Assembly (NCBI RefSeq): GCF_000006405.1
Contig: NW_003216498.1
Location: forward strand, 555,431-619,430
From: Perkinsus marinus ATCC 50983
Taxonomy: Eukaryota > Perkinsozoa > Perkinsida > Perkinsidae
DNA: 64,000 nt
Direction: 5' to 3'
Position numbers and translations under genes: made by a program. Each line of letters starts with the position of its first letter. Position 1 is the first letter of the stretch. Below the pieces are notes generated by a model. The model was not told the DNA's origin. It ran no database searches and was given only the letters and a program-made list of their open reading frames with translations. This document shows positions 24,793 through 63,800 of the stretch, one piece after another.

Positions 24793-25494
24793 ATGATTGG
24801 TGTCGTTCGTGGCTTTATGAATCGCCAGCTCCTCCGTGCCTTCTGCACAACGGCCGCTAAAACGACGGAGGCTGCGACCGCGGCTACTACTGTGTCGTCG
24901 CAGGCAGCCACTACTGCCAGAGCGGCTCGTGGGGGGCCGGGTTTTTTCGCACGGATGAGGAGCTTCACTGGCGGCTTCACTTTGGCGTCTGCACTGGGCT
25001 TCTACCTCATATTCGTACAGCTACAAGGGATGACAGATGAGGTAGTGGCACGGGGTTGCGGTAATTGGAGTGAAAACGGAAAAAGGACGTGGGTTCGAAT
25101 CCCAGCCGCGTCATCTCGAGTATATCCTCCTTTTTTACAGTGCAATGCCTCATGTGTTATTTGATCAACGTGCCGGTAGTTCATCAGGGAGAGATAGTCG
25201 TATATGGTCGAGCTCACCATTGACAGTTAACTATGAATTCAATTTGTGTATGACAACAGAAATTGTTGAATCCTGGGGAGTGCTGCAGTGATCAACTTTG
25301 AATTTCTCCACTATTGCGAATGTTGGGGGGAGAAGGGACGCTCCTTTCCTTGGTCGAACAGTGTCCTCTCACAGGTGCGGGCGGCTGTGCATGACGTTGC
25401 TGTTAGACAAGCCCGTCTGGAGGAAAAGGTGCGTAGGATTGAATCAGCATCGTCCACTGCGGCTGCAAAGGAGTCGGCAGCGGCAACACACTGA
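24793..25494 (+). CDS. Small mitochondrial-type membrane protein with coiled-coil tail
   Basis: Exons 24793-25041 and 25375-25494 join in phase 0 across a 333-bp intron and give 122 aa. The N-terminus is rich in Arg, Ala, Ser and Thr without acidic residues, like a mitochondrial presequence. A single transmembrane segment follows (LASALGFYLIFVQLQ), then a helical charged tail (VRQARLEEKVRRIESA). No family is recognised; an accessory subunit of an inner-membrane complex is one possibility. The intron carries a tRNA-like B-box segment in the sense orientation. Confidence 0.6.
25075..25112 (+). other. tRNA-like T-arm segment in an intron
   Basis: GACGTGGGTTCGAATCCCAG then CCGCGTC has an exact B box (GGTTCGAATCC) and a four-of-five-pair T-stem. 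It is in the intron 25042-25374 of the small mitochondrial protein gene, sense orientation. Confidence 0.6.
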
Positions 25495-25595
25495 AGGCTG
25501 AGGAAAGCCTTTTGCTAGAGGGGGTCAATTTTCTCACGGCATCGTTGTGGAGTTCACTTCTGGTCGCTGTGGGTTGAGCTCATGTTGTCAGTTTT

Positions 25596-26267
25596 ATGAG
25601 CAGCAATTTTACTTATGTCAATAGTAGTGTAGTCTCCCCAGAAAGTGAGGAGGATCTCGAATGGTTTGCCGTCCCTGAGGGATGCCCCTGTAATACTGAT
25701 CCTCGCAAGGGGTTGTTGGTATACTGCGGAACATGCGACAATTGTCGGCGGAGCGAAGCTTTTGATGTTGCCGTCAGAAAGGCCGGGGGTAAGGGTGAAG
25801 GACTTTTCGCTACGAAGCCTATCAGTGAGGGCAGGATAGTGGCGTTTTATGCTGGTGAATTGCTGTCAACAAGGGTGGCTACGCGCCGAGCTCGAGAGGC
25901 TAGTGAGATGAGGTTGCCAGACAACTACCTTTTGAGTGTGTGTGAGCACTTTGCAGGGCCTAGAGGGGAGGTATGGACGCATGTGGACGCGCGGTACTTT
26001 GGCTCCTTGGGGAGATTCGCCAACCATCGTTGTGGTGGTGGCAACACTGAGCCGTGTGTGAGCCGCCGGCCTGGGGGGCTCCCTTTGGTGCTGCTCATGT
26101 CGCTGCGGGATATTGCAGAGGGAGAAGAGATCAGCTTTGACTATGGTAGCAGTACTGCTACACCCGACGTGGAGGGTAGACGAAAATGCCTGTGTGGATC
26201 ACCGAACTGTACGGGTGTGATGCCATACCACACCATCGATACTTCGTGCCTCCACTACTCTACGTAG
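25596..26267 (+). CDS. SET-domain lysine methyltransferase
   Basis: A single exon of 223 aa. A pre-SET-like cysteine cluster at about residues 29-50 (CPCN...YCGTCDNC) is followed by the SET domain: GKGEGLFATKPISEGRIVAFYAGE, then RFANHRC for SAM binding, and the GEEISFDYG catalytic region. A post-SET zinc motif (CLCGSPNC) follows. These enzymes transfer methyl groups from SAM to histone or other lysines; the target cannot be read from the sequence. NHRC replaces the usual NHSC. No intron is present, unlike most neighbours. Confidence 0.9.
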   Translation: MSSNFTYVNSSVVSPESEEDLEWFAVPEGCPCNTDPRKGLLVYCGTCDNCRRSEAFDVAVRKAGGKGEGLFATKPISEGRIVAFYAGELLSTRVATRRAREASEMRLPDNYLLSVCEHFAGPRGEVWTHVDARYFGSLGRFANHRCGGGNTEPCVSRRPGGLPLVLLMSLRDIAEGEEISFDYGSSTATPDVEGRRKCLCGSPNCTGVMPYHTIDTSCLHYST

Positions 26268-26286
26268 TGTTGTGTTGAAAGTATTA

Positions 26287-26424
26287 ATGGCGTTTCGGGC
26301 AGGTATGAAATTCTACCCAAAGGAAGAGTGGCTTGAGGACATCGATGCCGAGTTTATACAGCCGCCACCGCCGCCTCCTGTATTTGCTCTACCACGGAAT
26401 GTCCTTTTAACTGGCGGAGCGTAG
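26287..26424 (+). CDS. Small conserved-looking ORF (45 aa)
   Basis: ATG at 26287 to TAG at 26422-26424. It starts MAFRAGMKFYPKEEWLEDID, continues with a run of six prolines and ends LLTGGA. The composition looks like real protein and fits between two genes on the same strand, 20 bp after the SET gene and 16 bp before the carrier gene. I do not recognise it; it could be a small organellar subunit or an upstream ORF of the carrier transcript. Confidence 0.4.
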   Translation: MAFRAGMKFYPKEEWLEDIDAEFIQPPPPPPVFALPRNVLLTGGA

Positions 26425-26440
26425 GTGGCAGGAGAACACC

Positions 26441-27634
26441 ATGTGGGATAAGATGGTCCTACGCAGGTCTCATCCTGATACTATGTGGCAGTCCCCATTG
26501 CTCACGTTGGTGACGATACTCGCGCTGGGGTTGTGGCTACAGCTCCACTGTCCGGTGTGGCACGAGCATCACTCTACGGCCTTGCGTAAAGTAACCTTCA
26601 ACCTACTCTTGCCTTGCTATGTATTGCAGTCTATGTGGGGTGCCTCTCCAATAGACACGACCCTCTTGCCTGTGGCGGCTTACTCCTTCGCCACCCACAT
26701 TATTATGTCGGTGGTCATCGGCATCCTATTCCTGCGGGTGAGCGATCGCCAGGTCCGTGGATGGCTGTGTATGAGCGCACAAGGAGCCTTGCTGAGCTTC
26801 CTCTACCCTCGTCTCGCTGCTGACTCGCGATTCGGCGAGCGGTCGGTAGCCACTTGCCTGTTGTGGGACATCGGTGGGAACGTGTGGATTTGCCAAGGTC
26901 TCCTTTGGGCCACTGCAGCATACTTTGCTCCCCTGTGTGGAGACAGAGGAGTCCTGCCTGATTTGGACGACGATTCCTCACATGCAGTGCGTGAGATTCG
27001 CACTGAGAAGATCATGGCTTCTCTGCAGAGCTCAGAAGTAGCCCCTTTACGGGAGAAGGCGTCTCGAGTATCCTGGCGTCCCCTGGTCCTCAGCGTACTC
27101 ATCCAGCCCATTTTACCCGCCTTTATTATAGGGTTACTGTGTAACCTCTACAGTGTAGCGTCACCACAGCCAGTGGCAACCTGTCTCCATACTCTAGGGA
27201 TGTCATTCAAGCCTTGTTTGTATCTTCTCCTTGGGGTGTATTCGGCTAAGATACGGCCATCCGATGTACATGCTATGAGGATGGTCACTGCAGCTGTTTG
27301 TGTGCGGCTCATGTTGATGGGACTTGTAGCAAGCATGTTGTGGATGTGGTTGCCAATGAGTCCCTTGCCACGAGCCACACTTGTCCTCGCAGTGCTCTCT
27401 CCCGCTAGTACGATGATTATGTATCTTTGCGCCCAAGTGAGCAGCCTCTTCGCATCCCCTTGTTCGGATAGATTTATTTTCAGTTTGGTTACCCCGACCG
27501 TTTCGTGAGTATGTCAGCATTGCTGAGCATCGTGAGGTGAGTGATGCGTAGGTCTCCTATACGCGAATGTCGTTATTATCCTCAGTGTCTTCATCAGCTT
27601 CCTCATACAGCATCTCATCATGGAGCTCTATTGA
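26441..27634 (+). CDS. Auxin-efflux-carrier-family (AEC/PIN-like) membrane transporter
   Basis: Exons 26441-27436, 27484-27536 and 27586-27634 join in phase and give 365 aa. The protein has about ten hydrophobic segments arranged as two bundles around a central charged loop (residues about 175-215), the layout of the AEC family. Motifs include LRKVTFNLLLPCYVLQSMW in the first bundle, LLWDIGGNVWI and LAVLSPASTMIMYLCAQ in the last. The family exports organic anions or acts at the ER; the substrate here is unknown. The last two exons are very short. Confidence 0.85.
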
Positions 27635-28073
27635 TTCGGTTCTCGGGCTCTACGCGTTTGTAACATGTAACATGATTTCATATGTGCTATGAAGTTTTGC
27701 GTTCCCTCGCGGTGATAAAAACTTTCACGTTCGAACCACAGTAGAACACAATACGACCGGTGAAACAGGAATCCATTGCCTCCAGTAAACGAGGTAATCC
27801 AGACACAGTCCAAATGGAGACGAAATATTCCTTCGAAAGAGCGAACACTCTGGGCAGCTTCGACTCGATCATGGCTAATTGGGGGGGGGTGGGATGTCCG
27901 AATGGTGTGTCGTACAAGATGGATAACCTGTACTGACTCAACACAAGACGAGTTAACTAGGCGAGAAATATCGCGCATCGTGCAATTAGTAGTAATAGGA
28001 GGGAGTGAGAATAGAGAATACAGGAACATCATATACAGATATAACTTGGCAACACGTTGAACAGTCTTGTGAC
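27635..28073. other. Convergent intergenic region
   Basis: It lies between the 3' ends of the carrier gene (plus) and the secreted-protein gene (minus) and likely holds both 3' UTRs. No repeat or RNA gene is evident. Confidence 0.6.
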
Positions 28074-28970
28074 CTACAAGAAGCTCAGAATAACAGTGAT
28101 AGCGATTAACACGCTGAGTATGGACAAATGAGAACTGTCTTTCGCAGAAGACGGCTCGGCCGTTTGAACGGGGCATTCAGCGTCTGCCGCTGACGTGAAA
28201 TTAGACAGGCTGAATGGCGACTCATCAGCAGTGATATCGAGTTGCACCAAAGGGACTTGGGAATCGGGGTATTTAGCATTGAATGTGTCGTATGCATTTA
28301 GAGTATCGCATAATTGAGCCGCTCCTGGTATGTAAAAGAAAGCATTGATACTATGCGGTAGGTTGTTGAGCCAAGGATCAGTATCGAGCACAACCTCGTT
28401 GTACATTGAGAAGGACTGCAGATGCATCATTCTCTTGAGGTTCTCTGGACCCCACCAGCACATGCCAAGATCGTTCACTCCTGCCTCGATATCCAATACA
28501 CAAGAGTTATTGGTGCCTCTGGCGAGACAATCAGAATCATTTTCATGGCACCCGCACCCGCGGTTGGTGCGGTCATCGGAACCACCATCCTCAGAATAAA
28601 CGCACATGGCCTCGTTTTGATATGGATCGTAGATGATACCACCGATGTCGACTGAGAACACAAGGATGTTACCGTCGTGGAAGTTCCTGCGACGGTTATT
28701 CGATATGTAGGCGCAGGAGCGATCAGCAGTAGTGTTGCAGCGGGGGTAGTTGTACAAGGCGCATTCTTCGTGGGTATAAGGCCTCCAAGGCTCCCCGAGA
28801 AGACCGGCGTGAGACTTGCTGAAATGATGCAGGAGGACCCCAGCCTTGTCCATATCGTCGGAAGGCTTGCCGAGATTGAAGCGCTCATTCAAGACGTTGA
28901 CAACGTCAGAATGGGTCTGAGGAACAGCTCCAGAGACGACTGCTGCTAAAGCAATGTAATGGAGGAGCAT
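28074..28970 (-). CDS. Secreted, probably GPI-anchored cysteine-containing protein
   Basis: One exon of 298 aa from the ATG at 28970. The N-terminus is a signal peptide (LLHYIALAAVVSGA). The C-terminus is a Ser/Ala-rich stretch followed by a hydrophobic tail ending the protein (LSILSVLIAITVILSFL), the pattern of a GPI-attachment signal. Between them are about a dozen cysteines, including a CGCHENDSDC cluster and C-WWGP, and several N-x-S/T sites (CNTT, ENDS, NNS, NFT), consistent with a surface glycoprotein. No family recognised. ORF starts further upstream use TTG. Confidence 0.7.
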   Translation of the reverse strand: MLLHYIALAAVVSGAVPQTHSDVVNVLNERFNLGKPSDDMDKAGVLLHHFSKSHAGLLGEPWRPYTHEECALYNYPRCNTTADRSCAYISNNRRRNFHDGNILVFSVDIGGIIYDPYQNEAMCVYSEDGGSDDRTNRGCGCHENDSDCLARGTNNSCVLDIEAGVNDLGMCWWGPENLKRMMHLQSFSMYNEVVLDTDPWLNNLPHSINAFFYIPGAAQLCDTLNAYDTFNAKYPDSQVPLVQLDITADESPFSLSNFTSAADAECPVQTAEPSSAKDSSHLSILSVLIAITVILSFL

Positions 28971-29371
28971 GATGGAAATAAGAGAAGAAGGAATAACTGT
29001 GAGCACTTTGCTGATCGGCAACCAGGTTTTTATATTGTCGCAGCAAACACGTTACCAAGATTCCATCATGCCCATTAAAACTACATCTACGCACCCATCA
29101 TCTCCCGAACCACATTGATGCACTCCTATGGGGGTGAATGAAATTTGTATGCGGTCCAAAAAAGCAAAGCCGTCATCAGCTTCTATGTCGATGTGGGCAG
29201 ACTAACGCATCAGCGGTGAAAGGTTAGATCGAAGAGGATCCTATCATTGCTCCTATTACTAACTCAATGCTATTATCATGATTCATCAGCTTTGTACAGT
29301 ATATAAAAATTGGTGGATTGAATGATACGCTCGATGATATTACAACAGGAGTCTGGTCATATAAAGGTGGC
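28971..29371. other. Intergenic, between IscA-type gene and secreted-protein gene
   Basis: About 400 bp holding the promoter of the secreted-protein gene and the 3' end of the Fe-S gene, both on the minus strand. Nothing else recognisable. Confidence 0.6.
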
Positions 29372-30066
29372 TCAGAAGCCGACATTGAAACTAGCACCAC
29401 AGGAGCAAGCCGATTCAGCTAGCTTGTTTTCGCTGACCTGAGTAGTCGTGTGTGAAGGAACAGATGAACCGCATGAGCCGTGCATTACCACAAACTTAGA
29501 ACCTATCATCTCCTCAACGAAGTCCACCTTGCAGTTATCGAGATAAGACTCAGACTGAATACACTACCATGGACAGGCAACAAAGACTACGACCGTTGCC
29601 CTAGCCTATTACCAGTGCATCTACCAGCATCACGACTGAGCCATCATCAGCCTCCACCTTGTTGTCTGTTGCAGTAGCTGAATCGGCAGGGACGAGGTCG
29701 AAGTAGTACCTACATAAGCAGGCCTAGGTCAACGCGAAGGTAGAGTGGTCCTACTGGAAGCCGCCGCATCCACCAGAGTCCACGGTGAGTCGCAGCGCTA
29801 GAGGTATGTTACGTTTCTTGCTGACATCGATGATATGCTGCAAAGGACAGTCCAAGAGGGTATGATGTGAAAGTGGTTACTTCAACGCCAGCAGGTTGTA
29901 GTGTGAGGTTCCCATTCTCTGAGACTGCAGCTTTAAATGAGGCCGCTCCTTCAGCGAACCATCGTTGAGATTGTGCTACTGCTGGAGGTACGCATCGCGA
30001 GGAGGCCCGAACGGCCAAAGGTCGGAAGAGAGTCCGTCCAAGTGTACTAGAGAGTGAGGGTAGCAT
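29372..30066 (-). CDS. Mitochondrial IscA/ISCA2-type iron-sulfur assembly protein
   Basis: Exons 30066-29881, 29837-29755, 29709-29613 and 29554-29372 join in phase and give 182 aa. Residues 1-60 are Ser/Arg/Ala-rich like a mitochondrial presequence. The A-type domain follows: LRLTVDSGGCGGFQ with the first cysteine, VVMLVDALV, YLDNCKVDFVEEMIG, and a C-terminal ACSCGASF that supplies the Cys-x-Cys pair. A-type carriers help build or deliver [4Fe-4S] clusters in mitochondria. An insert of about 20 residues rich in Ser/Thr/His precedes the final CxC. ISCA1 versus ISCA2 cannot be decided by eye. Confidence 0.9.
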
Positions 30067-30622
30067 GAGGTTGAGTAACACGTGAAGAGGAGGAGGAACC
30101 TGACAGTGCTGCTGCATTATAACAGTCAGAATGGCTATGCTTCGACGCTGAAGCGATTGACGCTGTACAATCACATACACGGTAATTGATATGTAAATAT
30201 GCTGGAACCGTTACGAATCGGATATATGCATATGTAGGGCGTGGGTTCGATCCCGGCTTCTTAGATTTTTATTACAGTTTTTTGTTCAGTTCGCACGCGT
30301 TTGAGGTCATGGAAGCGTGACCGCACAGAAGATATGTTCAACTACAGCTCCTAACCTGTAGCTCGCAGGTAGACAGAACGATAAGTCATCGAAGCGTAAA
30401 CTATCGCTGCTGCATAGCTCCCGAACCCTCATGGTAGGCGTGATGCTGCTACCCGTACAATAGAGTCTCACAATGAGCTCCTCATGCAGTAGGATGTGGG
30501 CATTGGATGGTCGTTAGTACTATCCTGAGCCGTATGGTCAACCTGTCCCGACAGAGCAGGAGTACCATGAGTAATGCGACAGTGCCTGTGTAGTTCCTCT
30601 TTTTCTGCTGCCGCTGCTTATA
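30067..30622. other. Divergent promoter region of IscA-type gene and DNAAF1
   Basis: About 550 bp between two divergently transcribed genes. It contains a tRNA-like B-box segment at about 30238-30262 in the DNAAF1 orientation, followed by T-rich DNA and TTACAG; this could be part of a 5' UTR intron of DNAAF1. Confidence 0.5.
30238..30262 (+). other. tRNA-like T-arm segment upstream of DNAAF1
   Basis: GGGCGTGGGTTCGATCCCGG then CTTCTTAG, followed by TTTTTATTACAG. Same pattern as the intronic copies: B box, short spacer, pyrimidine tract, AG. It could sit in a 5' UTR intron of DNAAF1. Confidence 0.5.
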
Positions 30623-32382
<1,760 letters not shown>

Positions 32383-32830
32383 CCATTACTTTAAGTGGTG
32401 TCTCATTGTATTCATACTTGCAGCTTGTGTTAGTTGGCAAAATTTCCCGTACTCCCAGGAACAACGCAACAATGGCTCAGTAACGGCAGATAGGAGCATA
32501 ATATGGTGCAAATAAGTCAACTGGTTGTGGCTCAGCTTGGGACTACTTCCGTCACAAAGCCCGTTGAGAAGCTCTCATCTCGTCCAGTTCCGCCAGCCAG
32601 GGCGGTCTGTAACATGAATGCATGCTCATGGTCACTACTAGCAAACGCCTACCTCCATCCCACAGGTTCCAAATTGAACTTGTCGAAATCGCCATCCCTT
32701 AGTGTGTATTGGCCAGGCCCTGGTCCCTTGTGTCGGGTATTATCCTGTGGTGGTGGTGGCCATGCATCGCTCCGCTATCGATTCTGATAGTTTACCTGTG
32801 CTTTTTCCCGTCCTGTCAAAGTGATCATCC
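32383..32830. other. Convergent intergenic region
   Basis: It lies between the DNAAF1 3' end and the 3' end of the minus-strand ciliary candidate. No confident feature; a GCATCGCTCCGCTAT word near 32763 is related to the recurrent intron motif described under findings. Confidence 0.5.
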
Positions 32831-33720: not shown

Positions 33721-33735
33721 TAGCCGCCGTTTCCA

Positions 33736-40772: not shown

Positions 40773-43353
40773 ATGTCTAAGGAGATACGCAGTGTGGCGT
40801 GTCTGCCCAAGGATGTCTGTATGCAACCTCTACATGAAGCGGTCATGGAGAGGACTCGGAAGTGAGCCTTGATGAGGAGGTGAATGCCTTGATGATGGTT
40901 TTTGGTATAGGTATATTGCTGCCCAAGAAGACTGCTGCTCCGACGACAATCCTCCAATACCAGTGGTCTCGGTAGGTTGACGGTTCACTGAAATGTTCTA
41001 TGCTGAGTTTAGGCTCGAGGCAAGCAGGATATAGAGTCGGCTTTTGCATCGGTCTCATGTCCAATCGCGTTCGAGGAGGAGTGTCCACCTATGGATGATG
41101 ATTGCCTCAAGCGAGCGGTTGATTTTACATGCGACCTCTCTGTATGCTATCACCACTCGAACGCCTGGGGTGGAGGTCGTTGTTGCTGTTGGTCAGGTCA
41201 ACACCGGCCATTTGTTCTTCTTCAATCAGCTCTTCGCCCGACCTGATCCCTTAGCAGTTGCTGCTGAAGGCCTAACTGCCGCACTCAATGTTAATATGTA
41301 GTGACACTGTCTGGGAAGGGCATGTCTTGGTGCAAGCTAGTGGTGATCAGGTATACCTTTGAGATGGCGCCGGTGATGCTACTTATGGAACACAGGTTGT
41401 TACAGCATATGGCATCGTTCTTGGGATGGTATGAGCATAGTCCCGTCAACACGAGACGATCCTCTTCTTCTACATTGGAACCAGGTAGACTCCGCTTGAC
41501 GCTCTCTGGAGGTGTGTACTCGTTAGGTCATGGTGCGACACTGACGCGTCTGGCCTCTGGTTTGAGTGATAGGGCGAATGGGCAGGTATAGCAGGAAGGC
41601 TGGTTGGTAGTACACTGATGATAAGTGCTTCAGTTCGATGGTATGCTCCTACCCGGTGCTTCTCACTGTAATATCACAGCCTTGCATGTGGCTAGGCAGC
41701 AGCTGTTTCCTGATACCATCAACGAAGGTCTTATGGGAGCAGGTGCGTGGTGTTATCATATGTTTGGTCACATTGCCTGGCTTAGGACATCCTAGGGGTA
41801 GATTGATGGTCTTCACATCGGCCAACTCCCATTGCTCTATGGAGAGAGGATGCATGATGCTCGGTAAGTCCCCTATTCCCAAGGTCGATCAGTTGGTCAT
41901 TGGAAAGTGCGCACAGGGAAGATTCGTGGCTGAGCGGCGGCTAGAGGAGCATCTTACGCAGGATTGTTCCCCTCAGGCCTTGGTAGGAAGAGTCTGGTTT
42001 ACGTTAAATGTGATCCTGAGACCTGCCAAATGATACCATCTGAACTCGAAAACTGCATCAATGATGAGGTAAAGGGGACGATGGATGAGCTTCGCTCCGC
42101 TGTGAATTTGGTGGTCAGATTGAGAAGGGCAACACACCTTTCTTTGTTAATGCGACAGCTGGTAGTACGGTAGCAGGAGCCTTCGATGACTGCAGTGCTC
42201 TGGCTGGGATTGCGAAGAAGTAGGCTAGCACGATGGAGGGCTTTGTGAAGGTTTTCATGTTAGGTATGGATGCTGGCTACATGTGGATGGTGCCTTGGGG
42301 GCATCATTTCTCTTAGCCAGGGGGGAAGAACCCTATGATAGTCTAACACGTAGGAGTTGCTCAATGGATGGTATGAGAAGGATGGTGGTGTCAGGTGGCA
42401 TGGACCAGGCTGATTCGATTTCCTGGAATCTGCATAAGTTGTTAGGAGTGCCTCTACAGTGCAGTGCTCTACTGTGTAGGCATTCTGGTTGTTTGAAAGC
42501 TGCTCATGAGGAACAGCATGCATCAGAGGTGGTTCTCACAAGGAGGATGCGGGTTCGATTCCATGCTCAGGCATTTCCGTGTTTGAGCCCGTTAGACACG
42601 GTGTATTGCTCGTCCATGTCGGGACGTAAGGCTGATGCATTCAAGGCATGGATACTCTGGAAGAAGATGGGAGATTGTGGTATGGCCAACAGGGTCAGGC
42701 TGGTGTAGTATCAGACCAGGAGCAGGATGTTTATACCACTCCTTTTGTGAATCTTGAGGTATACACACACGCAAGAGTTCGCGGCTATGTTGACGAGCTT
42801 CCCTGTGAGGAAGCAGTTCGACGAGGCACAGCTGAAGTATGAGGAACCGATCATTGAGAAGGTGCTAACGCAGCCGTCCAGTAGGGTGGGTTGGGAGGCC
42901 CCTCTTCAGATGCCCAATGATGTTGAAGGTGCTAATGACAATGCCTTCCATTTGGCTTTCCAACCAACGTCGGCATGTAGGACCTCGGGTGATGTGAACG
43001 AGGGATGGTATGGATTTAGGTACATGTTTCTGGTGGGTACCCTATGACCTTAGAGATAGATTTATGAAGGAGGGCCCGAGTGCTCTGTCTAAGGAGCTAT
43101 TCACTGTAGCATGCCGTATGAGGGCTGCCTTGCTCTCCGAGGGTAAGGTGGCATGCTTTTTGGTTTGCTGTACCACAGGCCGCATCAGCTAGTGCGATGG
43201 ATGGTTTCAGGTTCACTGATGATATCCTTTTACTCCACTGAGGAGAAGCCTGCGTTCTGGCGTATACCCAATATCAACCCGGAGATCTCACATGAGCACA
43301 TGTGGGCCATCCTTAAAATCGTCAATAGGTGGGTTCGCGATGAACTCCGTTGA
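40773..43353 (+). CDS. PLP-dependent glutamate/cysteine-sulfinate-type decarboxylase
   Basis: The first exons are 40773-40861, 40911-40971, 41013-41141, 41197-41297, 41351-41428, 41573-41585 (a 13-nt microexon), 41634-41742, 41786-41863, 41977-42068, 42119-42219, 42264-42349 and 42395-42528. Later exons run to the TGA ending at 43353 and are less certain. Group II decarboxylase motifs are clear: FFNQLFARPDPLA, YTFEMAPVMLLME, FVNATAGSTVAGAFD, WLHVDGALGAS, and NLHKLLGVPLQCS with the PLP lysine. FRxxxxN-type C-terminal sequence (FWRIPNINPEIS) closes it. The enzyme decarboxylates Glu, Asp or cysteine sulfinate to GABA, beta-alanine or hypotaurine; which one is not decidable by eye. Confidence 0.88.
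42541..42572 (+). other. tRNA-like B-box segment in the decarboxylase gene
   Basis: GCGGGTTCGATTCCATGC followed by TCAGGCATTT resembles a tRNA T-arm and 3' end. It falls in an in-frame, stop-free stretch (42529-42570) that could be a 42-bp GT-AG intron or be translated. Family alignment favours splicing because the segment adds residues that homologues lack. Confidence 0.5.
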
Positions 43354-46286: not shown

Positions 46287-47060
46287 ATGGCGACCCAAGT
46301 GTTGACGACTGGTTCGGACGGCAAGCAAGTGGACATATCTAGGTGGAATGTAGGCTGTCGGAACATGAATAACGGGGAGGGGGGGGTAATTGTGGAAGTA
46401 TCAGATCCTCTATCCCAACTACTTGAATGCTGTCAAGACTGTGCCCGAAGGGCGGAGAATAGCGAAGGCTAAGTGGGCTTGGGGGCTTCTGTGAGTGCTC
46501 GGATAGGGGTAGAGGTTTAGGTGTGTCGAGAACCCGACAGTTGTGGAGATGGGTGAGGCTTGTCGAGAACTGCACATACCATGCGTATTAGAGGTAAGAC
46601 CCGGGTTCGGTCCTCGGTATGGGTATTTTTCTCGCAGGATAAGTGCTATCCCCGAGATTGGTTGGTACGTGGTAGACTGAGAGTAAAGCTTAGTGATGAT
46701 AATGGCAAGCCGCTGGTATCAGAGATACCCGGAAGTAGGTCGACGGCTCCCTTTATAGTTCGCTCTTCTTAGCCCCAATATTCTTCCTCGCCGGATATGC
46801 ACGTGTGATAGAGCTTGCCAGGTTGAATTTACCTTGGGTGTTGAATGGTATGGTGAAGCCATTTGTTTTCAGAGCGACAACTACTAGAGAAGATGGGCGA
46901 GGTCATACCCACACTGAAGTCGCGGACACATCCTGTGAAGAAGGCGGAGGAGAACCATCATGGTAAGGAGGCGCCGCCAGCATCGTCCTCGGCCAAGGCG
47001 GCGGCGACCACCACCTCCCATCCTCATAAGAGTAACAAGAAGAGGAACAAGCGGAAATAA
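46287..47060 (+). CDS. Signal recognition particle 19 kDa protein
   Basis: Exons 46287-46349, 46399-46490, 46521-46593, 46638-46734 and 46873-47060 join in phase and give 170 aa. The SRP19 fold is recognisable: ISRWNYQILYPNYLN, TVPEGRRIAKAKW, NPTVVEMGEACRELHIPCVLE, then KCYPRDW...RGRLRVKL, and EVIPTLKSRT before a Lys/Ala-rich tail. SRP19 binds SRP RNA helices 6 and 8 and allows SRP54 loading. The second intron is only 30 bp, and the third (44 bp) is almost entirely a tRNA-like segment. Confidence 0.94.
46594..46637 (+). other. 44-bp intron made of a tRNA-like T-arm segment (SRP19)
   Basis: Between the donor GTAAG and the acceptor CTCGCAG the intron is ACCCGGGTTCGGTCCTCGG plus TATGGGTATTTTT. 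The centre matches a T-loop with a Pol III B-box core (GGTTCGRTCC-like), in the sense orientation, followed by a pyrimidine tract. Confidence 0.6.
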
Positions 47061-53487: not shown

Positions 53488-56393
53488 TCATTCTCTTTTT
53501 TCCTGCTGTTGCCGCTGTTGCTGTTGCTGCTCATGCTTCTGTGCGATCATCTGCACCATCTGTGTAACCCAATCAGAAGGGGCTACCATCAGGTCCAGGA
53601 AAGGTGCACTCGCTCGAGGGTTCGGCGACTCGGCAGGTGCAGGGAAAAGCTCCCTCAGTGGGTGGAAGCGGAAACTAGGGCTCTTGCCAATGCGCAGCAG
53701 CAGATCCGGCTTCAAGTACCCCTCTGAAAGACAAGATGACAGACCCCATAACGACAACAACAACCGTAATTTGAACTCACGTTCGAACCATCTTCGCATA
53801 GCCTCTCGAGAGAATGGCCCTTGAACGGTATCCGACAGGTCCTTATAATACCAGCCTCGTTCCGGAGCTGGAGCCAGTTTTGGACGTTGCGGTGAGGGTG
53901 TGGACGGAGGAGTAGCGACCATTGGAGCAGGAGGAGGGACAGGAGGAGCTGCGGCAGCCACTGGTGACCGCCTTCTAGTATCATGATCGGAGGACTGAGC
54001 CTCGCTGCTCTTCGCCTCAGGGGAAGACTCACGACGAGCATCACCTTTAACGCTAGGGTGTTTACCTGAACGGTGATTGGTGACACCACAGTGTCGTCCC
54101 CCGTATCGACTCACTCTTCCTCTCTGGTCTATCACCATAGGCAGCACGTTCTTCAGGCGACAGATCCTCGAGATCAACCTCGCCTCTCAGAAGTGCACTA
54201 AACAATCCTCGACGACGTTCTTCCTCAGTGGAGACCTCCTACAACCAACACAATGCTCCCGACAGAGCTCCTCTCACACTACCTCATTCGTGCTATAGCG
54301 GCCACCATTGGTCTCGCTACCATCGTGGGAATCAGGCTGAGGAGACCTACGGGATTGAAGTTAGCTGTCAGTTTCCCACTTGAGTGCTCTCACTTTCCCG
54401 GAGCACGATAAGCCTTCGAAGCAACAGGAGCTGGCGGGCCGTCCAATGCAGTTGCTAATGCTCGAGGCGAACTCGGTACATCCTGAGATGCATAGTAAGG
54501 CTCTAGCAAATCATAGGAGGAGTACATGGAAGGCTGTAGAGGGTTTCCAAGAGGCACTGTAAAGCTCATCAAACTCATGACGGCAGATCAAACGGCCTGA
54601 AGGGGAGGGTGTAGTGGTGATGGATGAGGTGGTAAGTCGTACCCGTATAGGAGTAGATGTCGATTTTGTTATCGACACGCATACGCGGCCAAGTCGTGGC
54701 AGTAGAGAAATGACGCCCATCAGGTGCCCACACGCTGATCACTGGGCACTACAGGATGATGCATCGAAATTGAACATAGTGCAGGAGAATTACCTCCGCT
54801 CGAAGGCTGCCTACAACCTTGTATTCAGCCATATCCCAGAAGTCCATCTCCCCTGCCATGTTACCGAAGCCGCCTACTACAGCGTACCGGCCATATCGAT
54901 TCCAACACACCTAACATACCACTCGATCAGCAACTTTGATACCATCCCTTCTTACTGTGTTCCGCTTCGCTTTACCCATGCTATGTACAACATTGAGCTT
55001 CCGTATACTAGCCGACCCATCCTCTGTACCACTCGACGACGCCTCAGAAGCATTGCTCTTGATACTGCTAGTGCTGAAAAGAGTCGTCTCAGGTGGGATC
55101 CGGCCCGAAATGAGGATGAGCTCTTCCTCGGGATCGTCACCACATGAACCTAACACACGCCTTGGACCACAGCACCTCCATACCACAACTATTACTACTC
55201 CCGATTCTATCCTTCCGAGCATTCCCTGGACACCATCCGATATCATGTATAGGGGAGTTGCAAGCGACCCTCGACACTACATTAGATACCAAATCAAAGA
55301 GGTAAAGCATGTTAGTGCCATAGTAGCTGAAAACGCAACTGGAGCACCGAGTAACCCTCAGCATGCTGCTGCTCACGTGCTCTTCCCAGATTCGTCTACG
55401 TCCAAACTGAGGAGGCCAAGGAGCTTGCTGCCTGAGGCGTTCCAATAGAGGCTTATATCATCACCCTCTGGGAAGCTGTATGACAAGACGAATTTCTGAG
55501 GCTCACTCAGCACCGACACATGAACCTGAGCTCAGATCTCTATCGCACCCTTCCAGTATTAGCGGCCTACCGCTGGGCGCCTTTCCGTCCCTCTAGAGAC
55601 CACACACGCCACCTTTGGCTCGCCTTCTACCTCTGAAATACCACCACATCATAACAACACCAAGTTGAGCATAGCACTCACCAGGACCCGAAGGGGAGAG
55701 CTCAATCTGTTGGATACCCGGGATCTTCTGCTCATTGGTAGATGCCTTTCTCGAGTTCAACACTTGTAACTGAAAGCAGCAGCTCCCCACATCCTCCTCC
55801 TCCTCCCCCATCTCACGATATCAGCGTCGGGTAATATCCGCACGCAGTAGGCTTCATCATCAGTCCACTTCATTGCTGGCCATAGATGCTTATTCATCCT
55901 CTTCATGCGGCTCTCCACAGCCTTGCACCGACCAGCCACACTCCACAAGGCTAGATTGGGTAGCTCACGCTCAGCATCATACCTCTCGAATGTGACCTGG
56001 GGTATACGACTGTGATAGGAGGGAAAGCTTCGCTCCGCTGCAAATAGTACCATATAATTGGACAGAGGAGAAAAGTAGAAGTTCTTGAAGCTCTTGGAGT
56101 TTGGCGTGGCCACCATAACGATCTCCTTGTAGTCTTTGGTCACGTCATAGACGGTGATACCGTTCTCGTTATTCATACAAGCACAAAGCGTGCCTGGAAA
56201 AATGACAAGCGTGGGAATCGAACCTACAACCACACGAATGGCAGTCGCCAGCAATACCATCTGCGTTCCAATGGAAGCCTTCCGCGTTGGTAACGTGGGA
56301 TCCCTGTAGTGTTATGAGTTTCCTCAACGACTTGTTGAGGAGGTCAAAGCGGTATATCTCGACGCCGTTCTTACAGACCGCAGCAATATCCAT
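53488..56393 (-). CDS. eIF2A-like WD/beta-propeller protein fused to a GYF domain
   Basis: Starts at the ATG 56393-56391. The eIF2A part contains EGFHWNADGTLCACM, YFSPLSNYM/VTFERYDAE, LWPAMKWTDDEAYC, SPIHDIGWCPG, STATTWPRMRVDNKIDIYSY and FDELYSASWKPS, all matching the eIF2A propeller. After KAYRAPGK the frame continues through in-phase exons (SPQPDSHDGSE, then EVSTEEERRRGLF, then a Ser/Pro/Ala-rich linker) into a GYF domain: RGWYYKDLSDTVQGPFSREAMRRWFE/QGYLKPDLL. It ends in a Gln-rich tail at 53488. eIF2A is an alternative initiator-tRNA/translation factor; GYF domains bind Pro-rich ligands. Middle exons were not all mapped. The in-frame fusion is supported by five consecutive phase-consistent junctions. 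Confidence 0.8.
56195..56257 (-). other. 63-bp intron dominated by a tRNA 3'-half-like sequence (eIF2A)
   Basis: On the gene strand the intron reads GTATTGCTGGCGACTGCCATT, then CGTGTGGTTGTA and GGTTCGATTCCCACGC, ending TTTTTCCAG (shown in pieces). It resembles an anticodon arm with a GCC-containing loop plus a variable loop and a T-arm with an exact B box. Both splice junctions are fixed by reading frame (G/GC at the phase-1 codon). Confidence 0.65.
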
Positions 56394-56711
56394 CTCGGCA
56401 GTCCGGGTTCGATAAAAGGCTCACAAAATTTACAGGGACTAACAGGAATAATAACAAAATGCCCCTCCCAAGGATTGAACCTGGGACTCTTCATGAACAA
56501 CCTATCCCCCATCCAACTCAACCATCTGAATCACGTCAACGAAGATACCCATTGTTATCATCACGTGTCCATGCTAGCCACCTTACTCCTACAGGCCAAA
56601 CACACCATCACAAGTCCCTCGAAGTCTTCATCCCTCGAGGCGAGCTAAACGTGGATCGACGACCGAATGCACCTAAACCGTCTTGCTGTTAATGAACAAG
56701 TTAAAAGTAAC
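56394..56711. other. Upstream region of eIF2A-GYF with a tRNA-like segment
   Basis: On the minus strand, about 56475-56545 contains GATGGTTGAGTTGGATGG (A-box-like) and CCCAGGTTCAATCCTTGGG (T-arm with B box) followed by a T-rich run. It lies 80-150 bp upstream of the start codon. A proper acceptor stem is missing, so I do not call a functional tRNA gene. Confidence 0.5.
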
Positions 56712-58760
56712 CTACCTCCTCCGCGCCCATAGGAAGACTACTTCTCCTAGCCCGAGACCTGGTTTGTTCACCTCCTCTACTCTGCATGCTATGATGAAAA
56801 CCAATGGGAGCTCATCGTCACAGCAGCTGACCTTGTCAGTAGATACCCCAAGGGTCCATCTCCGACCATCGCTCCGCTCAGGAGCCGACCCCGGCCTATG
56901 CACCGGGCAGAACTGACTACCATGTTCCTAACAAACACCCCGTTGACATGATAGGGACATCAGTCACCTTAGGGAGGGGGCAGTAGCCCTGCCGTCTGAG
57001 AATCCAATAAGCACAGCCCCTTGGGGCCTTCTTGCCAGCCCCCCTACGGACCAGCTCAATACATCATCAAGAACCGCCCTTACTGGTGAATGGAGCAAAA
57101 CCGCGACCTGCCCTCTCTAGGGAAGCTGCAACGAATGCCGTACATCTCATTAACGAACCGACACGCCTTTTCCACCTTTCCGTCCGGACCTGAGACTAGG
57201 GAGGTTACTACCAACTAACTGCATAAATATCCTGAGGTTCACTTGAGTCCCCCATGGATTCACCTCTACTGCCTTCATCAGCATCGTCCCCAGTCGCCTC
57301 ACCTCTCCCCAGCTAACAGGACATGCCAAGTTGAAGGCTCCATCACAGTCTGGATTACATTCAGGGCCTCCCGAGAATCTTCCTCCTCCATTTCTCTGAT
57401 TTTACGGGCAAACTCTGACTCAGGCTGGTTACGGAAGAGATCCTCTCGGAGCTCAGCGCTACTACAATGCTGAAAATGCAAAACTTGTTTCAAACCTCAG
57501 CGGAGCGGAGCTGACACCCTCAGAGGAGGCCTAGGTCGCCTCCGACTCCCCGAACTAGAAGCCTTTACCAGACGGGGACCTCCCAGTGATGAACTCCCGA
57601 GAGTCTAAACTGAGAACTCGTAGATGATAAAGAACCTCCCAGTGGAGCCAACTTCCTTCAGCTTATCATCACCCCAACAAACAAGCCTCTCTTGGTCCAC
57701 AGGTCCTCCCATAGCGGGGAGAGTGCCCTCCCCCTGTCCAAGTAGGAACCTGCAAAACCCTCGTAATTAACTCCAGGGTAGACCCTACTTAGCCACAGCA
57801 CACACTGCATATCTCGGAAGCTCGATAAGGGCTCCTCTCCCACTCTCAGTCGCCTCAGGAAGGGCCACTTCGTCTTCTTCAAAAGCATACCACTCCTCCA
57901 GCTCCTCACATATGCCAACCTTGACGGTGAAACTCGACACCACAAGCCGCCTCTACTACAACTCATACCCTACCTTGCTCATAGCACTAAGGATCTCCCG
58001 AGCCGCATGCACCCCTATCCCATCGTCAATACCCTCGACAATCCTCAGATTCGCTGATGGGGAGGCATACGAGGACCCTAGAAATGGCAGCCTTACAGTA
58101 AGGGAAGGTCTGGAGGACCATGACCCTCATATGCCCGATTCTATTCAGTAGTGTCTTCACAGGAGGCAACGCCCCTTCTATCACTGGGTCTACCATAACA
58201 TGGTATGTGCCTGCGTGCAAGGATGAGGCTCACGGACCTCAGAATAGATCTCACCCAGAAGCTTAGGCCGCATAGTAGCAAGATGGAAGAATATCTCGAA
58301 AAGGGATGAGTATCAACCTACCCCAACTACCACTACCTCGCATGCCCCTCCCCAAGCCATCACTATCAGCGACCAAGCCTTGACCTTGCTCTCCTCCATA
58401 GCTCGTATGAAAACCTCTGTTCGCTGTCCATAGGTCAGGTCTGAGGGATGATAGCAATATACTTCATGCTTCCAAGGCTTCCAGCTCCTACCTTTGAGGA
58501 GTATCGGATCCCCTTCTCTACTGCATGCCCAGTCCAGTTCAAAGCCTAGTGCATTGTAACCAACAAGATCATACAAGGCCACAGCCACCTTCCACCATGC
58601 TGCCTAACGACACCACCATCATCCCCTCATTACCTTTTACACCTACCCAGCTCCACTCTGACTGGCCGCCCCCCGCTCTGGTGTTGTGCCCGATAGCAAA
58701 CAGGATCTGCAAGCTACCGTTAATGAGGTTCCTAACCCCCCCTTAACTGTCTTAGTGGGG
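56712..58760 (-). CDS. Unrecognised multi-exon gene(s), minus strand
   Basis: Open segments with protein-like composition follow one another: VALYDLVGYNALGFELDW...LKGRSWKPWKHEVYCYHPSDL (about 58590-58390), RIVEGIDDGIGVHAAREIL (about 58040-57980), EELEEWYAFEEDEVALPEA (about 57910-57850), ELREDLFRNQPESEFARKI (about 57460-57390) and RRWTLGVSTDKVSCCDDEL (about 56860-56800). Splice-like sites lie between them. I cannot assign a family or join them reliably; two genes are possible. No transmembrane segment or repeat is obvious. Confidence 0.35.
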
Positions 58761-59164
58761 GTGTCCTTCACCCCTAGTAGCCGTAACATAACATTAGCTC
58801 GAACTCCACCCGATATCTCCACCTCTACAGTGCGACTCCAACACGTATCGAACTTCCTGAAAAGCACCAACATCACTAGACCCTACCCCATAGATGACTA
58901 GTACTACTACCTAAGCTCTCGATGAGTAACCCTACCAGCCGCCCCACATGCCCTCAGCAACTGCCCTGCCATATCTCGACACTCTCGCCGTTCATTAACC
59001 AGCATGCCACTACTAGCCTCCACCTCATAGCTGATCGATGGTCTTCGGACGGATGCTGACGAAGAGTTACTCATAACGAGGCAAGCTAGAAGAGACCGTC
59101 ATTGAGTGCACTAGGAACTACAGGCCACTACTCTAGACAGTGTAATGAAACAAAGCTTAAGAGC

Positions 59165-60344
59165 TTATTGGGCCTCTGCTTTTTTAGCAGCAGCAGCAGC
59201 TTCCTTCTTCTTTTTCTCAAGGATTGCCGCCTTCTCAGCCGCCTTGGCCTTCTCTATCACCTCTATCTCGATAAAGTCCTGCTTATCCTGCAATGAGAGA
59301 TGTATGCACTACTCCCAATATGTACAAAACAGTGTTGGAGTAAATGATCGTATTCCTCAGCTGAGTCCAGAAGTTTCCTCACTAACTATAGAAGTTTACA
59401 TACAAATTCGTGTACAAGCGTACAGAAGCCAATGGGAATTCCTCAATTTTCATCCTCAAAATTTCCGCAAATGCCACCTACACATGTAGTTGACTACGTG
59501 CATATCTTCCCACACCGGTACAATATGAACATGGCGATATGTTGGAGTTTCACGACCCGCTTTACGTGAAGTGGCGTAAAACTCGGTGGAAAAGGCGATA
59601 TTCGCGGTGATATGCAGTAGTCGTGAAATATATTTTTCACTAGTGTTTTTCATATCACTAGGATGAAACCCCAATATGCACTATAATATAGAAATAGATA
59701 CTACTAGTTATACTCACAAATGTAAATATACCACTACCTGTAACCAGCGGCTTACCTCAGCCTCGAGATCCCGACCGTCCTTTATGTATTCCTCAACATA
59801 CCCAACTACAGGGTATCTAGATGAGAGCAATCACTAGAGCACGGGGGGAGAGACCCAAGACGGTACTTGTCGTGGAAATGCTTCACCCACGAGAGAAGGG
59901 CCTTCCTATACTGAGGCTTCTCCTTCTGGACTTCATCCCAATCTGTTCGGTTGGCATCTTCAGGCTTCAGCGAGAGCAGGCACATAGACACGGTGCAGTC
60001 CTGATAGAAAAATCGTCAAATAGCTTCCCCTCGAGTAACCACGTACCTTGCCAGCCCATATCTTAGCGTAGTGCTCGCCAGGCACCCCAAGCATACGGCT
60101 TTTAGTGACATCATAGACCTTTCCCTTAAGGCCCATGTACATTTTCTTGTCAGCATTATTACGACCATCAAAGCGCTGTAATGCGGCAAAGGAGAAGACT
60201 AGACGGCCTTTAGAGTCTTTATACGGCTCGGGACTAGGAGCAGGACTTTGCTCCCGAGTAAGATACCTGCATAGAAGGGCATGACCCCAGGCCCTACTTG
60301 CGACCGATCAGTGGAAGAGGAAATACTTACTGGAAGAAACCCAT
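59165..60344 (-). CDS. Cytochrome-b5-like heme/steroid-binding (MAPR/PGRMC) protein
   Basis: Exons 60344-60331 (minimum), 60266-60047, 60000-59867, 59816-59756 and 59287-59165 join in phase and give at least 183 aa. The domain core is FSFAALQRFDGR...KKMYMGLKGKVYDVTKSRMLG...YAKIWAGKDCTVSM, close to PGRMC1-type proteins that bind heme through a Tyr-based site. A short hydrophobic N-terminus (FFAFYVPMGFFQYL if the upstream frame is included) could be the membrane anchor. The tail is a Lys/Glu/Ala-rich helix. The start codon is uncertain; an additional 5' exon is possible. The last intron (468 bp) hosts a MITE. Confidence 0.88.
59330..59517. mobile_element. hAT-like MITE inside an intron of the MAPR gene
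   Basis: 188 bp from CAGTGTTGGAG to CCCACACCG with 8-bp flanks GTACAAAA (59322-59329) and GTACAATA (59518-59525), seven of eight identical. It lies wholly within the 468-bp intron 59288-59755, far from both splice sites. Confidence 0.9.
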
Positions 60345-60810
60345 AGGAACGTAAAACGCGAAAAACTGTGAAAATGTTTCCTCCCCTGCCGGCTACTACC
60401 ACATCAAGGCCGCACCCAAAATGCATATGAGAGCTACCCAGGAGGGAAGATAAGCGCTATCGTTCAGCATAGTAAAAACCAACAGTAACGCTAACATGAA
60501 CCGAATAGTAATCAACAGACACTAGTAGAGAGTCAAATCTTGTTTATCTTGAGAATCTTGCATTTCCTCAACGCTAAGGATCAGTAGCTGGGGATAAACA
60601 TTCTTACTCCCCATAGCAGACTGGTGCTAACATATTCTACATGGCCTCCTGTAACATTTTTTCGAGGAAGATGTGACCAGTTCACTCAGGATTGGAATTT
60701 TAGGCGTATGTGAGCGCTTTTTAGATGATTTTACGAAGCTAGATTTCAGTGCGTATCTTAGTCCTCGTAGTAGCTTGCATTGTAGGGAGGTTAACCTCCT
60801 CTACCTAATC
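60345..60810. other. Divergent promoter region of MAPR and AP-4 epsilon genes
   Basis: About 460 bp separate the two divergent starts. It may also contain an upstream exon of the MAPR gene near 60398. No TATA-like element can be asserted. Confidence 0.5.
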
Positions 60811-63800
60811 ATGTCGGGAGGACATCTATCGAAGGACTTCTTCCAGCTTATAAGGGCTATCGGGGAGAGCAAGTACTGACTAGCTTCATGCAGGGCTTGT
60901 CGTTAGGGGTAGGGGTGGCTTAGGTCGAAGCAAGAGGAGGATAAAATCATACAGGGCGAAGTACAGGTGCTCAAACGGAAACTGCTAGAGCCCAATATCT
61001 CCTCTAAGAAGATGAAAGAGTAACCTCAGGGGTACCTCATTCTCCAGCTAGATAGTCTAGATGTCATTAGGTATATGATCCGGGCTGTTTATGTGGAGAT
61101 GCTCGGTCATGACGCTTCCTTTGCCTACATCCATGCGGTCAAACTGGCTCAAGATAAGGTGGGAAAGTACACCATAGATTCACTTGAAGTCTACTGCTTA
61201 GAACGTATACAGCAAGAAGGTGGGGTATATGGCCTCCTCCTTGTTCCTAAATGGTGATGATGAACTTATGTTACTGCTGGTCAACACCATGCAGCGGGAC
61301 TTGGGCAGTAGTCTACCCTACAACACTCTATGCTTCACATCCTCCTTATAAGGTTCCAACTTCCTAGAGACCTGTGCCGCCCTGTCGGCGATCACACAGC
61401 TGGTCAATGCAGAGATGATCCCGGCTATCCTGCCTTTGGTCACCAAGTTATTGACACATACTCAGGATGCAGTGAGGAAGAAGGCCATTATATGTAAGTA
61501 TGCTGCAGTGGGTGCTCGCCTAGAGACAGAATATGTTTACTAGGCTGCTCTTCACCGATAGTAGAAGCTCACACACACAACTCTGGATAGAAGTCCACAG
61601 AAACAAGTCGAAATTCGGAAAATTTGCTCCCAGAATTTTCATATTGTCATCGACCCATGTAGTTGAGGATGTGCATATTTTCTTCTTCCTCTCAGGTATC
61701 CAGCACTTTTTTAGACTATCACCAGACTCGGTGGTTGATGATGTCCAGCAAGATGTCCGTAGAGCTCTGTGTGATCCAGATCCGGCAGTGATGGGAGCTA
61801 GCTTGAATCTCCTTAGGGACATTATTCGTTACGATCCCGAGTCCTGCAAGGACCTGGTAATACGGTTGGTAAGGCAAGGAGGGCTAGTTCTGGAGTCAGG
61901 TGCCATCTCTGGTCAACATCTTGAAGCAAATCATAGAGCATAGGTTGCCGAGGGACTTTGATTACCATCGTATGCCGGCCCCCTGGCTGCAAGTGAATTT
62001 AGTGAACCTTCTGGGTATGCTGGGAGAAGGAGATCAAGGTTGGTGCTGGGCGAGTGACAGGGTGGCGAAGGGGACTATTTAGCGTGGATGAGGTGCTTAT
62101 CGTATCGCGGTTGTTAGTCTCGAGACAGTGGACTGTCGTGGTTAGTTTTGTTGATTGTTAGGAGATTTGACTCAGTGGTTAGTGTTCTTGACGTGCTATC
62201 TGATCGCTCCGGTTCAATTCCTAGTTGAGGCATTTAAACTCATTCAATCCTTGGCGGTTCCCTCTCAGATGTGAGCGCCCAAGTGTACGATATAGTCCAG
62301 GAGACTATGCGGCGTGCTGACACCGGCGTCAATGCGGGCTACAGTGTTGTCTATGAGTGTGTTAAGTGTGCTGCTAAGCTCTACCCTAGCCATACCCTCC
62401 TCGAACAAAGTGCTGCGTCAATCTCCAAGTTCCTCCAGAGCGACAGTCACAATCTTAAGTATCTAGGAGTGACAGGACTTGCAATGATTGTAGTACAGGA
62501 TATGCTATGAAGTAGTGGTCTTGTAGTCCTGGTCGTCAGATCACAGTGAACCCTGATTACGCTAGAGAGCATCAGCTGAAGGTTGTGGAGTGTCTAGAAG
62601 ATCCTGATGAAACCCTAAAGAGACGTAAGAATCTTGCTGGTGTCCCGCTCGGCTGGTTTTGGCAGTGTATCGAGGCATAGTTTCTATATCCATGAGGGTT
62701 CTATACACGAGTAGATGATGGAGCCTTATTTAGGTACACTGGACCTCCTCTACCGCATGACCAACCCTGCTAACGTCATTGTGGTATGTGCTAAGATGCT
62801 ACAGAATCTTCGTTCGTCCCATGACGTCCACCTCCGCAGGGATCTGGTAAGTACCTGTCTAATGCCTCTGATGAGGTTAGTCCCAGTAGAAAGGTCTTCT
62901 ACTCGGTCTCATTCTTCTTTTATTAGTGTACCTATCGTATTCGGTCAGGTCCGTAAAGTGGGGTCCTTAGCAGAGCGGTATTCGCCATCTAATCAGTGGT
63001 ACGTTGAGACCATGAACCAGGTCTTCACTCTAGCCCCGTCTCTGGTGCCGTCATCACTACCCACCTCCCTCATGCGTTTGGTGGCGGAGAGCGGCGAGGA
63101 GGATCCTGAGTTCCGAGTGTAGGCCACCGAGTGCCTCCCTGGGTATGAATGGTGATGGTGCTTCTCTTTAGGTGGGCTGTGAACACCTATGTGAAGATGT
63201 TGGCTGCCAGCTCGGATGACTTGCCTGATGTTCTTGTTAGAGTCGTGGCTTGGGTAGTCTAAGGGGCCTAGCGGCCTTCGTTATGAGATAACATCCATGT
63301 AGGTGCTAGGCGAGTACGGGTGTATGTGCACACTCAGTGGGTATACCATTGATGACATAATAGACCTTCTGGCTCAAGCAGTGGATCGTCCAGCATTTAC
63401 TGAGGTCGGTCCTCGGTCAGATGCCGATTCGTGTATAGTCGGTGTTGTGGTAGGCTAGAGTAACTCGAGGGTATCTATTTTCATCGATGATGAAGTTACT
63501 AAGTCAGGAGCAACAGCAGACTACTGCTACGCCTTCCGTTGACACTGTAGGGCTCTCTCTTGTCCAGTAGCCTCACTTAACCATCCCTAGGTCCGACGAG
63601 CCCTCCGCAAATACAGTACTGACCCGGACATGTATCAGAGGAGCCTCGAGTAGTGTTATTGGACTTTATGTTCTCCCGTATACTCCAGGGTAGATACCTC
63701 AAGATCCTGGATGGCTCACCTAACCTGCTACCGTCGGCCTTCCCGTATGATGAGGCCAACTATGAGCGATCAGACTCTCTCATCGACGTATCCCTATCCT

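Follow-up and report, generated by a model that had tools for sequence, protein, structure and literature searches.

How new spliceosomal introns arise is a long-standing question, and the stretch of the genome of the shellfish parasite Perkinsus marinus analysed here (64,000 nucleotides, the window) raises it in concrete form, as introns of several of its genes contain a segment reminiscent of the 3′ end of a tRNA. A first-pass annotation had noted B-box segments in these introns and proposed that tRNA-derived retroelements or captured tRNA 3′ halves spawn introns here. The segments are real: B-boxes start at 25092+, 42552+, 46604+, 56224− and 62211+, as well as at 30244+ and 56481−, and their resemblance to tRNA 3′ ends, judged by sequence, is supported. 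We think it probable that they represent a diverse family of very short, tRNA-3′-end-derived, introner-like elements that are removed as minimal introns. The broader proposition, that Pol III-type tRNA-3′-end elements lying in either orientation spawn minimal spliceosomal introns across the Perkinsus genome, with a T-run doubling as polypyrimidine tract or 5′ splice site (GTAAAA), we hold to be about an even bet. More generally, the data hint at fragments of tRNA descent as a possible starting point for new introns. If true, a source in tRNA ends would be an origin unlike the DNA transposition with which most known introners are reported to be consistent, and one dual-use T-run, spliceable in both orientations, would give the birth of introns a simple basis in sequence.

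The exact word GGTTCRANYCC occurs 3130 times genome-wide, against 324 occurrences of the reversed word, an approximately tenfold excess. The window by itself shows a modest excess, with 20 sites of at most one mismatch where 11.7 are expected; 3 of 100 shuffles reach that count. Alignment of the segments revealed a common module of ~35 nt that comprises the variable loop, the T-arm/B-box, the 3′ acceptor strand, A73 and the T-run; across 49 aligned sites only AGG(T/A)C..GGTTCGATYCC..GGCATTTT is conserved, and these sites share no conserved 5′ half or A box, a few single exceptions seen by eye aside. A 36-column weight matrix finds 23 sites of at least 12 bits in 314 kb, at least one of which is a tRNA gene, and none in reversed and Markov controls. 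Seven matches of at least 14 bits obtained from the flanks only, some of them training sites, have 0, 0, 0, 0, 0, 1 and 2 mismatches in the B-box. T-stem pairing within the modules is no better than in shuffled sequences; because of this, the modules do not come directly from intact tRNAs, and a covarying T-arm RNA was rejected. Functional tRNA genes were likewise rejected: neither ARAGORN nor Rfam at its gathering threshold had a hit in the window, nor did 56100–62400 match any Rfam family at E ≤ 1. An upstream partner for the acceptor strand was rejected too, as the mean longest match is at the shuffled level at 100 and 200 nt and 3.80 versus 3.56 shuffled (sd 0.11) at 60 nt, and the tRNA-like offset is not preferred. 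A search for enriched upstream 6-mers came to nothing, and the idea that the element starts at the anticodon loop, which arose from seven sites only, is not claimed.

The introns and modules of the window are as follows.

46594–46637, + strand: SRP19 intron, 44 nt, almost all of it sense module
46596–46630, + strand: module in the SRP19 intron, variable loop to T-run, 25.2 bits (matrix)
56194–56257, − strand: eIF2A intron, 64 nt, with a sense module ending TTTTTCCAG
56198–56232, − strand: module in the eIF2A intron, 32.3 bits
42529–42570, + strand: intron of a PLP-dependent decarboxylase gene, 42 nt, sense, acceptor AG within the module
42544–42578, + strand: module in the decarboxylase gene, 33.3 bits, extending 8 nt beyond the acceptor into the exon
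62039–62268, + strand: AP-4 epsilon intron, 230 nt, from frame and reading
62203–62237, + strand: module in the AP-4 epsilon intron, 27.6 bits
25042–25374, + strand: intron of a small membrane protein gene, 333 nt, from frame and gene finder
25084–25118, + strand: module in the 333-nt intron, 32.9 bits
30236–30270, + strand: module with stops on both sides, 31.5 bits
56455–56489, − strand: module 5′ of the likely eIF2A start codon, 26.4 bits

The observations of the first-pass annotation are confirmed in part, as is its interpretation, and five of its introns are supported. Across the junction, the spliced SRP19 peptide scores 39.2 bits against the SRP19 family of Pfam, and the decarboxylase, listed as a likely case, scores 38.7 bits against PF00282 when spliced and 35.7 when the intron is retained; this 42-nt intron is a multiple of 3 and contains no in-frame stop. 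The eIF2A intron, whose length is not a multiple of 3, is supported by the frame, as splicing restores ..WNADG-TLCACMNNENG, while WD40 matches are weak; its extent is 56194–56257, not 56195–56257. Reading frame supports the AP-4 epsilon and 25042–25374 introns. The AP-4 epsilon intron holds a fuller tRNA-like element with an A-box-like stretch, recognised by eye, and in a copy search it matched itself only, with no near-identical copy. Placement of the segments near the 3′ splice site stands for the SRP19, eIF2A, decarboxylase and AP-4 epsilon introns, where the B-box starts 19–58 nt ahead of the acceptor, but not for 25042–25374, where the distance from the module is ~50 nt to the donor and 283 nt to the acceptor. 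Of the two further likely cases, that at 30238 has a module but no supported exon on either side; the module of the other, at 56475–56545, precedes the likely eIF2A start codon and may belong to a leader intron or sit ahead of a trans-splice acceptor. A B-box word at 23667+ falls within SDR coding sequence.

Outside the window, the module is also found within short introns of RPC11, DIM1 and an adenylate-kinase-like gene. Together with SRP19, eIF2A and the decarboxylase, these genes have introns of 42–77 nt of which the module makes up 45–83%; a tRNA-like part amounting to between about half and nearly all of an intron recurs in several genes, in both orientations. The host genes are unrelated, and alignments close over several junctions. 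Spliced RPC11 agrees with a protein labelled mmetsp/Transcript at 113 of 114 residues, and the alignment runs unbroken across the 77-nt intron, which is therefore absent from a transcript-derived protein; in the other cases removal from the mRNA is supported by protein homology or frame. The GT-AG ends point to the spliceosome as the likely agent of removal. DIM1 aligns without gaps to 2h1r over its 48-nt antisense-module intron and scores 40.0 bits against RrnaAD when spliced, 30.2 when retained; a protein search led no further, its near-identical match beginning past the intron. The DIM1 intron is a multiple of 3 without an in-frame stop. In the adenylate-kinase-like gene, GWVLDG-FPST spans a 54-nt intron with an antisense module and aligns without gaps to both AK8 and AK7, although the Pfam ADK score of 15.4 bits is under the cut-off. 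Cytochrome b5 probably carries an antisense module as well. Two leads were dropped: a ‘HAD’ reading at one locus had no Pfam or PDB match, and a repeat at another had 2 full copies among 6 matches. One further module sits in an apparent RRM coding exon.

All segments had been described as sense to the host gene. This is true of the listed sites, and matrix sites in gene-finder introns of the 314 kb lean the same way (14 of 18 sense; with a sensitive intron set at ≥12 bits, 14 sense versus 4 antisense), but the DIM1 and adenylate-kinase-like introns outside the window carry the module antisense. Genome-wide, splice framing runs both ways. With tRNA genes, tandem arrays and duplicated regions included, and with expectations from GCAA..YATG controls scaled by the word frequencies of the 314 kb, not of the genome, GTAA..module..YAGG occurs 142 times antisense against 38 expected (3.7-fold, p = 1e-19) and 75 times sense against 35 expected (2.2-fold, p = 9e-6). 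The assembly may contain duplicated regions, two candidate pairs among them. With these words antisense sites are at least as numerous as sense ones, and sense orientation fails as a rule. An initial antisense control, CTAA..YACG, gave 75 places, or ~111 scaled, relative to which 142 is an excess of only 1.3-fold; it was replaced by GCAA..YATG as probably contaminated, because its reverse complement, CGTR..module..TTAG, is splice-like and because several places were shared with the sense-framed list. Of 429 listed places with antisense GTAA, the first 100 include 56 in which the word is 11–16 nt away from the B-box; for the GCAA control, with 284 places, the first 100 include 30 (p = 3e-4, tandem arrays included). 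GTAA clusters at the end of the T-run, but the flank on the other side is variable (~2–25 nt).

Six of 15 modules of at least 18 bits in the 314 kb fall within supported introns of ≤80 nt, in a test set picked after the cases were seen, in which eIF2A and the decarboxylase have weaker support and from which one tRNA gene, the SDR exon at 23667 and overlapping palindromic matches had been removed beforehand. Chance placement would give this with P = 9e-8 for 279 predicted short introns, or 5e-5 if these are under-called threefold. Several results speak against intron-forming elements. Only 3 of 278 predicted short introns carry a module of at least 12 bits (2 sense, 1 antisense), and the idea that short introns hold modules in all stages of decay was rejected. 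The module lacks target-site duplications, and junction repeats are only weakly above those of other introns (9 vs 71, p = 0.037). A coding-potential test of tight introns failed to separate 39 elements from random positions (n = 600, p = 0.056); the sole element above the control’s 95th percentile is an N-run artefact. Flank coding scores around modules led to nothing, and the first AG past the T-run is not unusually close (median 20 vs 16).

We envision that each element carries tRNA positions ~44–73 plus the Pol III terminator T-run, and that it would derive from the 3′ portion of an oligo-U-ended Pol III transcript, reverse-transcribed into the genome. An element within an exon could, whichever way it points, be removed together with a few flanking bases as a minimal GT-AG intron. 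The T-run of sense copies occupies the position of the polypyrimidine tract, as first proposed, and would serve as such ahead of the AG; in antisense copies its end can read GTAA(A) and may act as donor, with GACCT, the complement of AGGTC, near the acceptor. We infer that the copies are mobile and were inserted by this route, as intron gain rather than conversion of older introns; insertions that created the introns are the best account of the data.

The first alternative to weigh is that decayed tRNA-derived SINEs are scattered in the genome, the intronic ones being passengers, some of which lend a splice site. tRNA-derived SINEs have a B-box, a Pol III terminator and many dispersed copies, all of which the module shares, and a fuller 5′ part in a few copies (AP-4 epsilon), the 28 copies of a repeat of ~285 bp that has a B-box close to the 5′ end, and the 9 of 15 strong modules in the 314 kb outside supported short introns would fit. 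Passengers should, however, lengthen their hosts, yet the supported introns are 42–77 nt, leaving ~7–42 nt beside a 35-nt module where predicted short introns have a median of 48–49 nt. The module is moreover a ~35-nt 3′ fragment without a conserved A box or 5′ half and without a separate tail, and no target-site duplications were found around it in 38 elements. The SINE reading of the first-pass annotation is accordingly weak for most aligned copies, and we regard passengers as unlikely.

Very unlikely, in our judgement, are two other explanations. ETC or TFIIIC-only sites consist of a B-box without an A box, as the module does, and selection on such or other sequence-specific sites, with introns as a tolerated location, would account for a B-box far better kept than the rest of the module and for the loss of T-stem pairing; it leaves unexplained the GGCA-TTTT at fixed distance and modules that form most of a minimal intron. 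Filler DNA, that is, tRNA-gene fragments captured at double-strand breaks and in some cases spliced by chance, agrees with both orientations, the lack of duplications and the variable extra bases on each side, whereas fixed module edges, from variable loop to T-run end, and one common sequence type would not be expected of random fragments.

The proposed introner-like elements derived from tRNA 3′ ends can be set beside known systems. The introner families described in the main text of Gozashti et al. (2022, PMC9860276) have median lengths of 30–654 nt, a range that includes the Perkinsus lengths, some lack TSDs and TIRs, and most are reported there as consistent with DNA transposition. As in those families, introns of unrelated genes are built from similar sequences; unlike them as described there, the module is a tRNA-3′-end/B-box sequence found in both orientations (the main text never uses ‘tRNA’, ‘SINE’ or ‘both orientations’), and the AP-4 epsilon element, the sole one searched, differs in its lack of a near-identical copy. 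The introners of Amoebophrya, another alveolate parasite, are also intron-borne repeats, but in the account of Farhat et al. (2021, PMC7789003) they carry inverted repeats and many of their splice sites are non-canonical, where the Perkinsus introns have GT-AG ends and a tRNA-like core. Intron-forming similar sequences in non-homologous genes, a mark of introners, are found in SRP19, RPC11, DIM1 and the adenylate-kinase-like gene and, with weaker support, in eIF2A and the decarboxylase.

Across the genome searched (54.46 Mb, 347 contigs), the B-box word GGTTCRANYCC occurs 1527 and 1603 times on the two strands, and the reversed word 145 and 179 times. A tRNA family search scored 63 among 4410 candidates, all 63 above the cut-off, a figure that is not a count of the real tRNA genes. 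We aligned 49 exact B-box sites from 335 kb of sequence, including 29 short loci picked around B-boxes; four are tRNA genes by eye, one of them among the 63 tRNA family matches, and one lies in an SDR exon at window 23667. Only the stretch that begins with AGGTC (index -8, tRNA position 44) and ends with the T-run (+22 to +26) is conserved in these sites; upstream of it the profile is flat. Among matches found by flanks only, the B-box is much better conserved than the flanks. When 49 elements selected by matrix were checked for three T-stem pairs, these formed in 45-49% of them, the shuffled level. A weight matrix trained on 42 sites found 23 sites of at least 12 bits in the 314 kb scanned and none in either of two controls.

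Reading frames, homology and the calls of a home-made gene finder together identified the following introns carrying this tRNA-3'-end-like module (G000:Cn, contig n of the assembly; L0nn, numbered loci; orientation relative to the host gene):

SRP19, window, 44 nt, sense
eIF2A, window, 64 nt, sense
decarboxylase, window, 42 nt, sense
RPC11, G000:C142:519398-519474, 77 nt, sense
fn3-domain protein, L052, 49 nt, sense
DIM1, G000:C1:137957-138004, 48 nt, antisense
adenylate-kinase-like, C1:29668-29721, 54 nt, antisense
cytochrome b5, L061, 49 nt, antisense
AP-4 epsilon, window, 230 nt
intron at window 25042-25374, 333 nt
presumably POLE2-like gene, C1:141649, acceptor side only

Perkinsus introns are GT/AG, 39-1622 bp long and mostly below 100 bp, according to PMC3101222.

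A protein labelled mmetsp/Transcript matches spliced RPC11 contiguously over the junction (113 of 114 residues identical; MMETSP is a transcriptome project), and the alignment of RPC11 to solved RPC10 chains crosses the junction with a three-residue gap exactly there. Gapless alignments join spliced DIM1 to the dimethyladenosine transferase 2h1r and the spliced adenylate-kinase-like protein to AK8 (Pfam ADK being below cut-off), and a Pfam SRP19 match supports splicing in SRP19. The fn3 and cytochrome b5 matches extend only to about the junction, and the DIM1 protein search is no test of splicing because the 131-aa ORF it returned starts downstream of the intron. The names RPC11, DIM1, adenylate kinase, cytochrome b5 and RBM39 (for its motifs) are those of human proteins; the likeness of the motifs to RBM39/U2AF65 is putative, as is that of the POLE2-like gene to POLE2. 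A 67-nt antisense candidate at L040, with no relative found in Pfam or PDB, was left out of the count.

The modules are probably not only passengers of introns. With one tRNA gene, the site in the SDR exon and overlapping hits at palindromes set aside, 15 modules of at least 18 bits were counted in the 314 kb, and six lie inside supported introns of at most 80 nt; only 0.3% (conservative set) to 1.7% (sensitive set) of positions would place a 35-nt module wholly inside a predicted intron this short. The other nine are found in a repeat, in longer introns or at sites without supported exons, and most predicted short introns have no module.

By the gene finder, whose strand calls are uncertain, 14 of the 18 matrix sites that fall in introns of the 314 kb are sense, and the sensitive intron set gives 14 sense versus 4 antisense introns at 12 bits or more; homology supports both of the antisense gene-finder cases whose modules are strong. 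Genome-wide, GTAA..module..YAGG occurs 142 times antisense and 75 times sense, and the GCAA..YATG controls 60 and 55 times, or 38 and 35 once scaled by word frequencies from the 314-kb sample; random positions predict 46-53 antisense and 39-43 sense. As antisense donor words alone, GTAA occurs 429 times versus 284 for GCAA (230 scaled). The matches include tRNA genes, tandem arrays and duplicated regions, so these counts do not represent independent events. The AA of GTAA comes from the T-run, and the clustering of this word is therefore no evidence by itself; comparison with GCAA corrects for this. The result least favourable to splice framing is the antisense CTAA..YACG control (75, about 111 scaled), which we judge contaminated, as its opposite-strand reading, CGTR..module..TTAG, overlaps the sense list.

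Several results speak against the introner-like reading of these modules. No target-site duplications were found around the module in 38 elements, junction repeats at module introns are weak, a coding-potential test of tight module introns failed to support it, and the first AG after the T-run is not unusually close. Among the open-licence PMC papers listed on introners, intron gain, and Perkinsus introns and SINEs, there is no report of tRNA-derived introners, which is not proof of absence.

A repeat of about 285 bp carries a B-box about 40 nt from its 5' end (L050, G000:C1:8308-8592). A 301-base query returned itself and 27 matches at 92-98% identity, each covering at least about half of the query, plus two of 33 bp; the two ends compared show no clear duplication. 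At L056 (G000:C12:158640-159240), a 30-bit module lies antisense within an apparent RRM-coding exon and may be an exonised copy. The exact word at window 23667 falls in the fourth tandem SDR gene, whose paralogues read at similar length, and is therefore exonic and probably a chance match. Evenly spaced B-box matches at G000:C9:91152-91561 (about 188 bp), G000:C25:217905-219230 (about 185 bp) and G000:C102:609-12018 (about 2830 bp) look like tandem arrays. On contig pairs C52/C69 and C32/C142 several matches recur in identical order, a hint that the assembly contains duplicated regions or haplotigs. In the window, a hexose transporter (13257-14774, minus strand) shares 79% identity with a P. 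olseni protein, 75% with P. chesapeaki and 81% with P. marinus (over 86% of its length), which assigns the window to a Perkinsus species, and an ORF at 49-657, which we take to be integrase-like, is perhaps the end of a retrotransposon.
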